Source of the DNA: Luidia sarsii
Lineage: Eukaryota; Echinodermata; Asteroidea; Paxillosida; Luidiidae
Assembly (NCBI GenBank): GCA_949987565.1
Contig: OX465102.1
Location: 13,243,469-13,307,468 of the forward strand
Length of the DNA stretch: 64,000 nt
Direction of reading: 5' to 3'
Below are positions 3,901-63,717 of this stretch, piece after piece; within the stretch, counting starts at the first letter, position 1, and the number at the start of each line of letters is the position of its first letter. The notes under the pieces were generated by a model. The model did not search any database, had not been told where the DNA came from, and saw nothing but the letters and a program-made list of their open reading frames with translations. The position numbers and the translations under genes are program-made.

Positions 3901-6900
3901 GTCCACTGAAACCATGTGCCCTATCACAACACATATGGATTATCCATTGTCTCACAGGAGTGGGTAGTGCTGGGCTCAATGGACCTGGACAAGCTGATTG
4001 GGGACAACCTGGAGACCGTGGCCGACTGGGAGCGGAACTTCAAGTCCGTCAAGGCCCGCGGCAGAGACTGTGAGAAGCTACCAAGGTGAGTCCTTCCACG
4101 TTGCCATTCCAGGGACCAATTACTAAAAGCAGCTTAAGCAACAAAACAAAAGCCTAATTGAATGCTGCACTACATATCTTAGACTCCATCTGAGGATTAT
4201 GATATAATTTCCTTCCCTTCTCTTCCCTTCCCCTTCACCTTGCCCTTGCCCTTGCCCTTGCCCTTGCCCTTGCCCTTGCCCTTCATCTTGCACTTGCCCT
4301 TCCCCTTGCACCTGCCCTTCCCCTTCCCCTTGCACTTGCCCTTCCCCTTCCACCTGCCCTTGCCCTTCCCCTTGCACTTGCCCTTGCCCTTCCCCTTTCC
4401 CCTTGCCCTTGACCTTCCCCTTCCCCTTGCCCTTGCCCTTCCCCTTCCCCTTCCCCTTCCCCTTCCCCTTCCCCTTCCCCTTCCCCTTCCCCTTCCCCTT
4501 CCCCTTCCCCTTCCCCTTCCCCTTCCCCTTCCCCTTCCCCTTCCCCTTCCCCTTCCCCCTTTCCCCTTCCCCTTCCCCTTCCCCTTCCCCTTCCCCTTCC
4601 CCCTTTCCCCTTCCCCTTCCCTTTTCCCTTTCCCTTCCACTTCCCCTTCCCCTTCCCCCTTTCCCCTTCCCCTTTCCCCTTCCCCTTTCCCCTTCCCCTT
4701 CCCCTTCCCCTTCCCCTTCCCCTTCCCCTTCCCCTTCCCCTTCCCCTTCCCCTTCTTCTTCCCCTTCTTCTTCCCCTTCCCCTTCCCCCTTCCCCTTCCC
4801 CTTCCCCTTCCCCCTTTCCACTTCCCCTTCCCCTTTCCCCTTTCCCCTTTCCCCTTTCCCCTTCCCCTTTCCCCTTTCCCCTTCCCCTTCCCCTTCCCCT
4901 TCCCCTTCCCCTTCCCCTTCCCCTTCCCCTTCCCCTTCCCCTTCCCCTTCCCCTTCCCCTTCCCCTTCCCCTTCCCCTTCCCCTTCCCCTTCCCCTTCCC
5001 CTTCCCCCTTCCCCTTCCCCTTCCCCCTTTCCCCTTCCCCTTCCCCCTTTCCCCTTCCCCTTCCCCCTTTCCCCTTCCCCTTTCCCTTCCCCTTTCCCTT
5101 CCCCCTTCCCCCTTTCCCCTTCCCCCTTTCCCCTTCCCCTTTCCCCTTCCCCTTCCCCTTTCCCCTTTGCAACCCTCCAGCGAGATCAAGGTGGACTGCA
5201 TCACGGTCTCGGCGGCTCCCATCAAGATCACCATCGACGGCCTGATCCAGCGGCTCTTTGACGCCCTCCTGTCCTCGCTGCGCTACTCCATCACGGAGCA
5301 CGTCAACACGGCCGACCGCTTCCTGAAGGAGGCCATGGAGGCCCTGGCCACTCGGCCCCAGACGGTGGAGGAGATCGGCGTTGCCAACGCCAAGCACGCC
5401 GAGCTGCAGGCCAAGAAGCCAGAGGTCAGCCCCGCAAGCCAGACGTAGCATTTAGGACAGGCACAGTTGCCCTCGGCCGTCAGGCTGATGGAGCTCTCAC
5501 AAGTATTGCACCAACATGGCCCCTGCAGTTTACAAAACTCTAGTCTGCGTTGTGTCACTGCAGACTCGTTCCCCTTGCATCGTACAGTCCTCCACAGAAG
5601 CTTATTCTTCAAAGCTTGCTCACCGGCCGTCCAGTTTTTTTTCGGCAATCAGTGGCTGGATGCCAAGGAGAAACAAGCCCTACAAAGTCTGACACAGAAT
5701 CGTTGCCAAATTCCTAGAATGCCCCGAGGTCCTGCTACTGTCAAAACATCAGAACCTCTCCGCTGTTATCCATTCATATAGGTCATTTGTCACCAAAGTC
5801 TCAAGGGTCAAAATCATGCCAGAAAAAAGCAACACGAAGCCTTAGGACGTGACCTAACCAGTTCCAACCTTATTCGCCACCCCGGGCTTCCAAAAATCCC
5901 GAGGGGGGAGACTCTGGTGCATAGTGTCTGACTGAGTTTCCTCCGTACTCGGCTCGTTTCAATAGATCAAGCCCCTGTTCAGCAAGGTGGAAGGCAAGAA
6001 CAAACTCCTTCGCACAGTGGCCGGCGGAGGGGTGGACCAACTGGACCAGCTGTACGCCCGCTGGGACAAGTTTGAGCTGATGATGGAGAGCCATGAGCTC
6101 ATGGTCAAGGAGCAGGTCAGTGGAAGGCCAAAGGCCCATTGAATGCAGTGCGGGTTCGCCCGCCACCAATGCTTTGCCGCCATCTTGAAAACAACTTTTA
6201 GAGGTCATTGGACTTGGGGTTTGGGAAAATGAAGATATCTAAAATAAAGATAACTAAAATGAAGATTTATGGTGATATACAAAAATGTTGCAAACTGCTT
6301 ACTGACTAAAATTACCAAAAAGTAAATCTAAAATTTAGTGGGCCTGACGTTTCGATCCTAGCAGGACCTTTCTCAATGGACCTTTCTCTGCCTTTGAGAA
6401 AGGTCCTGCTAGGATCGAAACGTCAGGCCCACTAAATTTTAGATTTAAAATGAAGATTACTAAAAATTATAACTAAGTATAACTAAAATTTGCTTAAGCA
6501 CAAAAAGGTCATGGTTTATAGGATCACTTTGCCAACCCAAACTTCACTGCTGTTTCACACTATAAGTAATGAAGAGGGGGAATACAAGTCTAAACCAATT
6601 GACATCACATCGCAATGTGGTTTGTAGTCCTGTTAATACACAAGGGAGACTATTCCTGCTCTGCAGGTTTCCACACTTAAGCGGCTCTATGAAATTGGGC
6701 CCTGATTGATTCTACCTTCTCTCTCTCTCTCTTTCTCTCCCCCATCCAACCCCAGGTGCAAGTGATGAAGAGCAACGTGGAGTCGCGCGTGGAGGGCTTC
6801 CAGACAGATCTGGAGAAGTTTGCCGCCCGCTGGCACCAGTTCAAGCCCCAGACGGACATAGTGGAGTCGGGCGACCGTGAGACCTGCACCAAGGCCCTGG

Positions 6901-9900
6901 CCACGGTCAAGGAGAAGCGCCAGGAGTTTGGCGAACTGGAGAAGACGAAGGAGAGCCTTGTGTGAGTACCGTCAATTCCTGTGTATAATGTCCCCTTTTT
7001 TTTTCACCGCAGTAGGAATGAAAAGTTGGGGATGCGCAGTATACGTGGGTACAACCAAATGGTGGCATAATGGTGACATTTCGCCTCGTTTTACCGTCAG
7101 AATTCGGTGTTAACAGTGCAAGGACTATTTGTTAGTTAATAAACCAATAATGCATGTCAAATGTTCATGGTTGTGACATCAGTATACATGGGTACAACCC
7201 GGTGGTGGCATAATTTTATGTCAATGTTGACATTAACGCCTCGTTTTACCGTCAGAATTCGGTGTTAACAGTGCAAGGGCTATTTGTTAGTTAATAAACC
7301 AATAATGGATGTCAAATGTTCATGCTTGTGACATTGGTTTTCATGGATAGCCTTTATTTCAGTAAAGTTTTTAAATTTAATGGGGTGGATAATGAATATA
7401 TGGTGGTTTGCGGTGACACCCTGCAGAGTTGAGTTTGGCAAACCTGGAGAAGACGAGGTGAAGCCATGTGTGTTTGTTTCCTAACTGCTGCCAATAGGCT
7501 GTACAGTGCTCCTATACCTTGGTCCTGTTCCAAAACCCGGCTTAGGCTTCGGCTCCGGCTTTGTGTCTGTCATCCAAAAGATGAAAGCACAGGTTGGAGT
7601 TCTTTGTTGAAGACGAAGCTTTGGATTCTTTTTCAATAATACCATTCAAGTAGGCCTATGAAGCCAAAGGCTTCCTGTTTTCATGCCTTGTACTTTAAAA
7701 TGGATGAAAGAACTGGAGACAAAGCCGGAGCCTGAGCCTAAGCAGGGGTTTGGAAAAGGGCCCTTATCTCCCTTCTGAAAAGTTTCAACAGTTTTAACAT
7801 GCAAAGGGGAACACACACACCCCCCCCCGGTCCGTGGTGTGTTATCCATGTGCGTCTTGAGCTGAAGTTGTGCTTGTGCTTGTAACCGTTGTGCGTGTGA
7901 TTCTCTCTCTGTGTGCTGGGGCCAGGTTCGACTGCAAGCACTTCGGCCTGGACGAGCCCCAGTTTTCCGTGGCCGAGGAGCTGAAGGAAGACTTGCAGCA
8001 GCAGGAGGCCATGTGGACTCTGTACGAGGAGTTCAGCAGCGGACTGAAGGGACTGGAGGACACTGAATGGATTGTCTTCAGGTGAGGGTCTACGTTGGAG
8101 AGTTTTTGCCCTCATTCGACCTGCAGTTAGCACTCTATGTTCAGTGCTCTTCGTCGGGTGCCTGGCAGAAGGGCGAAAGAGCGTTCAGACTCTAAACTCA
8201 CTTTTACCGCCCTTCTGCTGGGAATAAATTCCGTCTGGTCCGTTTTTATGGCTTTTTACAATTTCATTTTTTACTTCACCATGACGTAATATGTGAACAC
8301 GGAATGTGGATACCATTGAAACGCGTACAAAATTGAATTATTTGATTAAATGATTAAACAAAATAACCTTAGAGGGAATTTCCTTTGCCCTTAATGCCCT
8401 TCTGCAAGGCACCCGACATTTTTGTACCAAAATTGGTTACCAACCAAAATTCTGCTTCATGCCAATTTTTTTTTTTATTTAATTATTATTATTATTATTT
8501 TTTAGTCGAACGCAACACACAATATAATATATTGTGTGTTGCGTTTGACTAAAAAAAAAAAATAATAATAATAATAATATATATTGTGTGTTGCGTATAT
8601 ATTATATACGCAACACACAATATGTATGTTGTTTATATTTTGACATTATTTTGATACTAATAGAATTCAATCCAAACGTTTGCTGTGAACAGTCATTTTC
8701 TAAGTCTCAGAAAAGAAAGCAATAAATTTGAAGAGCTCTTTTCACGTTTGTTGGTCTGTTTGTTTGGCTGTTTGGCCTCTGGCAACCTCTGGACCCTACT
8801 CTGCAGATCCAAGACCTACCAGTTTGACGACTACCTGGCCACATGGGCAGAGAAGCTTCGCAGTGACGACATAGAACGCACCATGATGACGGTCCGACTC
8901 AGCAAGGATGTGGACAAGTACAAGGTGAACTGGAACTGCTACCCACTTTTTCTCCGTGCCCTGCTAAGCCCATTAAGTCTTCCTCATGTTATCGGGATTA
9001 CAAACCGGTGTGATGTTTATTAATTTTGACCTGTAATTATCTCTTTGTTTACTGAGTATGAAACAACACAAGTTTAGGTTGGCAAGGAGATCCTATGAAT
9101 AATAACGTTTTGTGCTTTATAGCAATTGTTGGTGCTTAAGCGGCTCTATGAATTTGGCCACGGTCTACAGTTGTCCATCAAAGATGAAGATCTTAAAATT
9201 TAGTGGGCCTGACGTTTCGATCCTAGCAGGACCTTTCTCAAAGGCAGAGAGACTCTGCCTTTGAGAAAGGTCCTGCTAGGATCGAAACGTCAGGCCCACT
9301 AAATTTTAAGATTTACATTTTGGTAATTTTAGTCAGTAAGCTGTTTGCAACATTTTTGTATATCACCCAAAGATGAAGATGTGCAAAGATAGCCACGTTA
9401 GTTATACAACTGATGGCAATTTATAATAACGATTTTGGTCACTCTGCCTTTGAGAAAGGTCCTGCTAGGATCGAAACATCAGGCCCACTAAATTTTTAAA
9501 TGTAGAATATATTTTATGAATTTTATGAATGTAGAATGTAGCACTTAGAGGTAGTACACACCATACGCAAAGATCAAAGAATTTCTTCCCTACTTTGTCT
9601 GACCCAACGTTTGCATAAAATAGCACACCTGTGTAAATTTCGGCTCAATCCACAACTTGCGCAATGCTTTGTGAAAGCGGCTGTTTGAATTCACCGACTA
9701 TGGCTTAGAATTACACACGAGTCTAAGGAAGCCACTGTCACCAAGGCCATCTTGTACCTTCACTGAAGTATGCCAGCACGTAGTTCAAGGATCTACGGAA
9801 GCCTTGATTTGGCTCCAGAACCATTCGTGATTCTCTGTCTGTCTTTTTTTTTTCTTCCTTAAAATTCTCCGTACCTTTGCCACCCAGGCCATCTCGCCCA

Positions 9901-63538: not shown

Positions 63539-63717
63539 TCTCAAAATTTAGTGGGCTTGACGTTTCGATCCTAGCAGGACCTTTCTTTGAGAAATGAACA
63601 TCTTCTTTCTCAAAGAAAGGTCCTGCTAGGATCGAAACATCAGGCCCACTAAATTTTAAGATTTGCATTTTTTGTAACTTTGTTCAGTAAGCAGTTTCCA
63701 ACATTTTTGTATATCAT
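63539..63717. mobile_element. Hairpin element A after exon 48
   Basis: Arms around ctttctttgagaaatgaaca, tail on the right (cagtttccaacatttttgta). Flanks are TTA-rich, so the duplication is not diagnostic. Confidence 0.78.

Follow-up and report, generated by a model that had tools for sequence, protein, structure and literature searches.

A typical Penelope insert has been described as an open reading frame (ORF) between direct pseudo-long terminal repeats (pLTRs), with an adjacent inverted, shorter pLTR and palindromes at the junction; a 31-bp tail is optional on one inverted pLTR, and the target duplications are 8-10 bp long (PMC3846280). Self-priming on an antisense template is proposed in the same account, which says that experiments are needed. 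The purified Penelope-like element (PLE) of an anole was reported to cut and extend both strands from two adjacent start sites, the tail being the interval between them, and this biochemical study of 2024 leaves second-strand synthesis and later steps for validation (PMC11167929). Here, a stretch of 64,000 nucleotides from Luidia sarsii (contig OX465102.1 of assembly GCA_949987565.1, positions 13,243,469 to 13,307,468 of the forward strand; the window) was analyzed, in which a hairpin element with two head-to-head arms and a tail on one side only recurs. The hairpin unit was found to be the 3' part of a Penelope-like retroelement, that is, a pLTR with a hammerhead-like RNA module followed by the tail. 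Such retroelements are genes that copy themselves and have telomerase as a relative.

The Luidia family resembles Pen2a of Adineta vaga (Penelope/Poseidon-type) as described in PMC3846280 in its ORF between pLTRs, inverted shorter pLTR, one-sided optional tail, short duplications, palindrome at the pLTR 5' end and TCACT initiator-like motif. In contrast to the 31-bp tail and 8-10 bp duplications given there for Pen2a, its tail is approximately 55 nt long and its duplications are mostly 11-15 bp; moreover, pLTR-only hairpins outnumber coding copies, and the arms end unequally in either direction. With PAc, a Poseidon element of Anolis carolinensis (PMC11167929), it appears to share two reverse-transcription start sites that lie near the ORF start and bound the tail; AT-rich targets are also common to both, as is, upstream of the start sites, a motif that in the Luidia family is hammerhead-like. 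The biochemistry reported for PAc showed no strand difference in start site (PMC11167929). In contrast, the two ends of one Luidia insert differed in every clear case. Twin priming of long interspersed nuclear element 1 (LINE-1) uses primers from both target strands on one RNA and produces inversion, a target duplication and microhomology at the internal start. The inserts described here appear to have two primers, inversion, duplication and microhomology in common with it; unlike in twin priming, the cDNAs would usually overlap and so give an inverted repeat, and the second start is nearly fixed. This footprint of one outer and one inner end may be the part that is new.

The hairpin unit and its autonomous relatives

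The hammerhead-like layout of the arm led the search to PLEs. The genome searched (471 Mb, 227 contigs) contained 1,354 candidate GIY-YIG endonuclease loci, of which 150 were scored and listed, all above the cut-off. When ten such loci were fetched, the arm was found 3' of the GIY-YIG domain in nine, and the whole 169-nt arm plus tail was present at 94-99% identity in six; at locus L021 there was only a weak 34-nt match. At locus L031 a partial copy was followed by a pLTR with the tail at its end, then by a frame of 943 aa and a second pLTR in tandem, direct order; the long frame opened inside the tail. This frame scored 28 bits for GIY-YIG (cut-off 22.6) and 25.4 bits for RVT_1 (E 1.3e-5), the latter below its cut-off of 29.6. 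RYIDD was present in the frame of L032, and several relatives in the protein search listing carried both reverse transcriptase (RT) and GIY-YIG domains. The closest protein to the L031 frame in the search, at 99% identity, was unnamed, and the best named relatives were uncharacterized or reverse-transcriptase proteins of Asterias amurensis, Apostichopus japonicus and Diadema antillarum, with 68-69% identity over the region searched. A 35-mer of the tail had 7,157 exact copies in the genome compared to none for the reversed control. The pLTRs were direct at L031 and head-to-head at L032-L036 (five of five, fetched for that arrangement). The genome contains many PLE copies with a single RT plus GIY-YIG frame, some tandem and some head-to-head, and thousands of tails.

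The retroposon-like origin and the polarity proposed in a first-pass annotation of the window are supported. RT and GIY-YIG are the domains encoded by the autonomous relative, and every pair has two unlike ends, so that a Mutator foldback element does not fit. Its attribution to a LINE is replaced, as the element sharing the sequence is a PLE. Nor is the family undescribed in kind: inverted pLTRs, an optional one-sided tail and short duplications have been described for PLEs (PMC3846280), and among PLE families this is an ordinary one that includes a pLTR-only variant. No match to the arm was found when viral and prokaryotic contigs were searched with exact 20-mers, and a literature search with four pieces of arm sequence was likewise without a match. 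A coding signal in the arm plus tail was considered and rejected: a single frame is open in S1 and S2 alike (subfamilies described below), the differences are too few, and a padded peptide search found nothing.

In the window, both strands were searched for the arm core gggcctgacgtttcgatcct with at most 5 substitutions, and 31 matches were found. Coordinate zero was set between GTC and AGGCCC, where GAAACGTC is followed by AGGCCC; on this scale the tail of S1 ends at +75. Eleven head-to-head pairs could be read (B, C, E, F, H, I, J, L, M, N and O); of these, N is composite, and M lacks an inverted overlap. Copies with a single arm numbered at least five (A, C2, D, G and K). Subfamilies S1 and S2, both of which form hairpins, have the arm and the final part of the tail in common; a third subfamily, S3, has only approximately 45 nt of the arm in common with them. 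The copies were as follows.

559-632, plus strand: A, old single tail-less arm, -45 to +21; no duplication found
6255-6458, minus strand: B, hairpin with left arm tailed (minus) and right arm tail-less; duplication TAAAATGAAGATT (6255, 6446)
9179-9380, plus strand: C, hairpin with right arm tailed and left arm tail-less; duplication CAAAGATGAAGAT (9179, 9368)
9438-9500, plus strand: C2, single tail-less arm
14548-15435, minus strand: S3 copy 1, diverged (14548-14678), adjoining a 27-bp satellite (14684-15435)
17559-17689, plus strand: S3 copy 2, 97% identical to S3 copy 1 over 131 nt; about 45 nt of arm in common, downstream part different
22860-22992, minus strand: D, single tailed arm with 5' end exactly at -39; duplication CAAGATATTGA (22860, 22982)
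23863-24041, minus strand: E, hairpin inside the duplication of F; tailed arm to -23, tail-less arm to -39; duplication ATTTATTTATTTTG (23863, 24028)
24043-24218, minus strand: F, S2 hairpin; duplication diverged
29188-29284, minus strand: G, single tailed arm
31165-31331, minus strand: H, S2 hairpin; center CCTTTGAGAAAGG; two private changes common to both arms
31339-31503, minus strand: I, S1 hairpin within the right duplication of H; tailed arm to -32, tail-less arm to -40
36574-36866, minus strand: J, longest hairpin of the window, both arms to -94, indels near the center; duplication CATATTTATCTTA (36574, 36854)
48170-48282, minus strand: K, single tailed arm
55379-55602, minus strand: L, hairpin, also readable as equal arms plus a 5-nt deletion; duplication AATCAAATATG (55379, 55592)
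62507-62673, minus strand: M, tail only (+22/23 to +76, minus), then tail-less arm (-77 to +23, plus); the pieces abut
62897-63160, plus strand: N, composite of tail-less arm, second partial arm and tailed arm
63539-63716, plus strand: O, hairpin with a mirrored double junction in the center

The satellite at 14684-15435 has approximately 28 units derived from the arm segment GCCTTTGAGAAAGGTCCT; lying next to an S3 copy, it is a PLE-derived satellite.

The eleven pairs bear out the earlier claim of at least ten hairpin copies with a one-sided tail, arranged as described, and the nearly constant tail end was located at +74/75 in S1 copies. Loop depth proved as variable as claimed. The opposite arm end varied less than claimed: after bases common to the target had been set aside, it lay near +18 to +25 in 10 of the 11 pairs and at +6/7 in J.

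Ends, arm depths and target sites

The rule of one tailed and one inner end was examined in a sample of 60 copies selected solely by containing the tail 35-mer (the first 61 of 100 listed tail places minus C1:410018, which is L033; L077 and L078 partly overlap), a selection blind to tail-less hairpins. These comprised 33 hairpins, 20 single arms and 7 copies reaching the consensus 5' end or the ORF, the single and 5'-end classes being set by a window of 420 nt. A second tail was found in none of the 33 hairpins, and their tail-less end lay between +11 and +39 (+15 to +23 in 28). Duplications of 9-16 nt, with a modal length of 13, were found in 23 of the 33 hairpins, and duplications of at least 9 nt in 9 of the 20 single arms. 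Two minus/plus neighbors within 500 nt occurred among the 100 listed tail places: L097 is a hairpin nested in an older copy, and L077 is a complete hairpin adjoining the separate tailed copy L078.

A block of 264 kb around the window (5.2 kb of it N; block coordinate = window + 100000) contained 21 head-to-head pairs in a fuzzy search. At the strict threshold 14 of these had one tail, none had two and 7 were under the tail threshold; at a threshold near 20 the scores would give 19 one-tailed pairs, no two-tailed pair and 2 without a recognized tail. Only two copies in the block reached back into the ORF end. At block 208456-208629, two arms lie tail-to-tail and are possibly separate old inserts. 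The same ends were seen in long inserts (3.4-5.6 kb), namely all five head-to-head GIY-YIG neighbors less than 5 kb apart among the 150 rows listed of 1,354 (the rows of seven contigs were checked, the remaining contigs by eye). All five had one tailed end, one short end (+16 to +29) and a duplication of 13-15 bp.

The relative depth of the two arms differed among inserts. In the sample, where depths are the ends of local alignments, the tail-less arm was deeper by at least 4 nt in 12 of 33 hairpins, the tailed arm was deeper in 8, and the two were within 3 nt in 13. Among the long inserts, the tail-less arm was deeper in L032, L033 and L034 and the tailed arm in L035 and L036, with an inequality of 433 to 1,625 nt; the arms within one insert were 99.6-99.9% identical over 1.3-2.5 kb, and in the alignments the pieces met with 0-3 shared bases or 1-2 extra ones. 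In the block, 16 of the 21 pairs were kept for the depth count (both anchors at least 11/14), and among the 11 unequal pairs the tail-less arm was the deeper one in 9 (P = 0.065), a count that includes some alignment artefacts. Pair 21183 was scored as having the short arm deeper through an 8-nt insertion and looks equal by eye; 233892 received this score through a 1-nt deletion, whereas inspection by eye shows a deeper tailed arm; a point change and indels account for the scoring of F and J as having the tailed arm deeper. At 188642, outside the 21 pairs, the tailed arm is deeper by eye.

The 33 sample hairpins showed 24 depth combinations, 20 of them seen once. One center recurred in both orientations relative to the tail (4 copies of each), and a second center recurred in 3 copies. 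Positions -39/-40, immediately within TCACT, were the end of many arms. Arms that abut without overlap, giving tile-like inserts, were found in M, at +23, and at block 30315-30410, where by eye a tailed piece from +9/10 and a tail-less piece from -7 to +6 are flanked by a 13-bp duplication.

The five hairpin duplications quoted in the first-pass annotation were all recovered, each occurring exactly twice in the window, as was the duplication caagatattga of its single-arm copy, at 22860 and 22982. Exact duplications of at least 11 nt flanked 7 of 16 window elements tested (one of the seven, O, lies in a TTA-rich run), compared to 0.055% of 20,000 random site pairs (0.035% of the 20,000 for at least 13 nt); these pairs were drawn outside tandem repeats, which were masked since the unmasked null was inflated. 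The duplications of F, H and I have diverged, and no readable duplication was found at A, C2, G, K, M or N in the window. Targets were AT-rich: nine duplications had 20% G+C, and 11 flanks had 32% compared to 49% in random draws, none of 5000 draws being as low. At the inner junction, target homology totaled 18 nt in 7 window copies, of which E and F have one target in common (P = 0.0007 versus AT-rich sites; P = 0.00005 under a second null). Younger copies lie within the duplications of older ones, E in that of F and I in that of H; therefore, target sites have been re-used. Nesting in the duplication or tail of older family copies was seen at 23863-24218, 31165-31503, L097 and block 188260-188660.

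Proposed integration of the two arms

The inserts were probably made from two cDNAs, one per target end, which used an outer and an inner start site and were joined head-to-head, some of the hairpins then being copied as units. The PLE protein would make a cut in each strand of an AT-rich target, the two cuts being mostly 11-15 bp apart, and each target 3' end would prime its own cDNA on the element RNA. One cDNA would start at the outer site, +75, and carry the tail; the other would start at the inner site, approximately +15 to +23, would have no tail and would often match the target over a few bases. Both would stop early, commonly near -39/-40 just inside the TCACT initiator-like sequence, and this position may be the RNA start, given that TCACT is named initiator-like in PMC3846280. 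The cDNA 3' ends would be joined via short homologies, probably in the quasi-palindrome CTCTGCCTTTGAGAAAGG, where like-stranded cDNAs could anneal over a few bases. The product would be a single-tailed insert in head-to-head order, flanked by a target duplication, and some hairpins would later perhaps be copied as ready-made units. Since the arms of a long insert are 99.6-99.9% identical, both cDNAs would come from one source. The tile-like inserts would be expected from two primers on one RNA if the second cDNA stops where the first began, and of the readings that cover all depth classes the two-cDNA one is the simplest. From these patterns we infer both a coordination of the start sites and the joining. 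In its full form, which we regard as possible rather than probable, two start sites on one PLE RNA, each target strand being extended from a different one, would constitute a coordinated two-ended integration; the optional tail and the inverted pLTR would be one event, and the pLTR 5' palindrome would be the place where like-stranded cDNAs are joined.

The snap-back route suggested in the first-pass annotation, in which a tail-primed cDNA folds at a short palindrome, copies itself back, halts near +20 and joins the other target end, would account for the near identity of the arms of a single insert, the mirrored odd junction of O, the quasi-palindromes at centers, and the 21 of 33 sample hairpins whose tailed arm either is the deeper one or differs by no more than 3 nt. 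As a general route it is contradicted by E, I, h175975, L032, L033 and L034, in which the tail-less arm is deeper: the additional sequence was never in the tailed cDNA, and therefore snap-back cannot explain those inserts. In three of the five long inserts and 12 of 33 sample hairpins, the tail-less arm extends beyond the tailed one by 4 to more than 1,600 nt; one center recurs in both orientations of the tail (4 copies of each); and the fixed inner end is unpredicted. Snap-back is possible for inserts with a deeper tailed arm or equal arms and is an unlikely explanation of the family as a whole. About as unlikely is unit retroposition, according to which a formed hairpin was transcribed and retroposed by the PLE in the manner of a short interspersed nuclear element (SINE), so that most window copies inherited their form and the centers were later trimmed as palindromes are. 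This would fit the arm-specific change and the center change common to L053 and L056, the large excess of pLTR-only over ORF-bearing copies (two of the latter in the 264-kb block; in the sample, 7 copies of 60 extending to the ORF or to the 5' end of the consensus), and the centers shared by 4 copies per direction and by 3 copies. However, 24 depth combinations among 33 hairpins, 20 of them found once only, the same asymmetry in long ORF-bearing inserts, and hairpins in both S1 and S2 argue against it, and trimming leaves the tile-like inserts unexplained.

Antisense self-priming, as proposed for the Adineta Penelope (PMC3846280), would have the 3' end of an antisense RNA fold at the pLTR palindrome and prime its own copy. 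Although the head-to-head order and the palindromes near the junction of short copies agree with it, it is rendered very improbable by the five long inserts, whose arms are unequal by 433 to 1,625 nt and whose pieces meet with 0-3 shared or 1-2 extra bases, and by the fact that both outer ends are PLE 3' ends beside a target duplication. A Mutator-like or other foldback DNA transposon with long terminal inverted repeats, the alternative named in the first-pass annotation, is practically eliminated: inverted arms and 11-14 bp duplications would suit it, but the ends of paired copies lie at different consensus positions (approximately +20 versus +75), single arms with duplications exist (D; 9 of 20 sample singles with at least 9 nt), and the autonomous relative encodes RT and GIY-YIG. 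No DDE transposase was found in that relative, DDE genes not having been searched for separately.

Several observations weigh against two-ended synthesis. L053 and L056, which have different flanks, share one change present only in the tailed arm and one center change that is reached by a single arm; some hairpins were thus probably copied as units, and therefore the 33 hairpins are not all independent and their mixed ends may be partly inherited. The class with a deeper tailed arm could be due to snap-back, and the anole PLE was reported to act in vitro without a strand difference in start site (PMC11167929). This weakens the independence of the sample, although 20 depth combinations are single and the long inserts are separate evidence. 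The idea that the deeper arm is always the tail-less one was rejected: the count was 12 versus 8 in the sample and 3 versus 2 among the long inserts, and the bias in the block was not replicated. Taken together, the rule of one outer and one inner end and the two-way inequality of the arms favor two-ended target-primed synthesis over self-priming and snap-back.

Hammerhead-like module, neighboring features and significance

The sense arm reads GCCTTTGAGAAAGGTCCTGCTAGGATCGAAACGTC followed by AGGC. In two of four stretches folded, stems GCCU/AGGC and GGUCCU/AGGAUC were predicted around UUGAGAAA and GAAACGUC; the two without both stems were a cut stretch and the diverged copy D. The predicted fold was clearly stronger than that of shuffles in none of the four stretches. 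A geometry scan with a descriptor written after the sequence had been seen gave 11/14, compared to 8 for the best of 3,000 shuffles, and a stricter hammerhead scan with the extra A disallowed found nothing. In Rfam, no hammerhead match to the arm was found. A microRNA precursor identity was rejected, as the Rfam matches to the hairpins were all under the gathering cut-off and reflect the inverted repeats. In a typical copy, the core has U at position 3 and A at position 8 where C and G are canonical, and an extra A precedes stem II. This paired double change with the extra A was observed in L022-L030 and in most window arms, in a family with many long open frames. Animal retrozymes are non-autonomous retroelements that bear classical type I hammerheads in small direct repeats and form circular RNA. 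Unlike these, the copies described here are inverted and their hammerhead-like module is without helix III. Small hammerheads without helix III have been reported for all available PLE sequences (review, PMC6155905; also PMC7761336). The predicted module is like these minimal hammerheads in the geometry of stem I, stem II and GAAACGUC, which is as expected, and unlike them in the change of C3/G8 to U/A, the one extra A and the lack of an Rfam match (PMC6155905, PMC7761336). The pairing of positions 3 and 8 is stated to matter in the active hammerhead core (PMC11167929), and a fixed U3/A8 variant beside long open frames bears on the need for a PLE ribozyme.

Other features of the window were also observed. 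Exons, for example at 669-965 and 9831-10196, match human dynein-2 heavy chain (DYNC2H1); of two such exons, one is approximately 75% and the other approximately 53% identical, as judged by eye. A dispersed repeat of approximately 100-160 bp occurs at 38391-38700, 16128, 21170, 24540, 42412 and 54414, and at 38391-38700 two copies of it are inverted, 7 nt apart. Another dispersed repeat (13965-14109, 26077-26302, 43067-43215 and 62691-62831) partly overlaps sub-threshold Rfam tRNA matches and is possibly a tRNA-derived SINE. AT-rich near-perfect hairpins (acgcaacacacaatat) at 8475-8640 are unrelated to the PLE arms.

On how a PLE insertion is completed, the literature offers the self-priming proposal of 2013 and the biochemistry of 2024. 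The thousands of tailed copies in this genome, many of them complete with ends, junction and duplication within approximately 200-300 bp, mean that competing models give footprints that can be counted. The start-site rule and the symmetry of arm depth provide concrete tests in this or other PLE-rich genomes.

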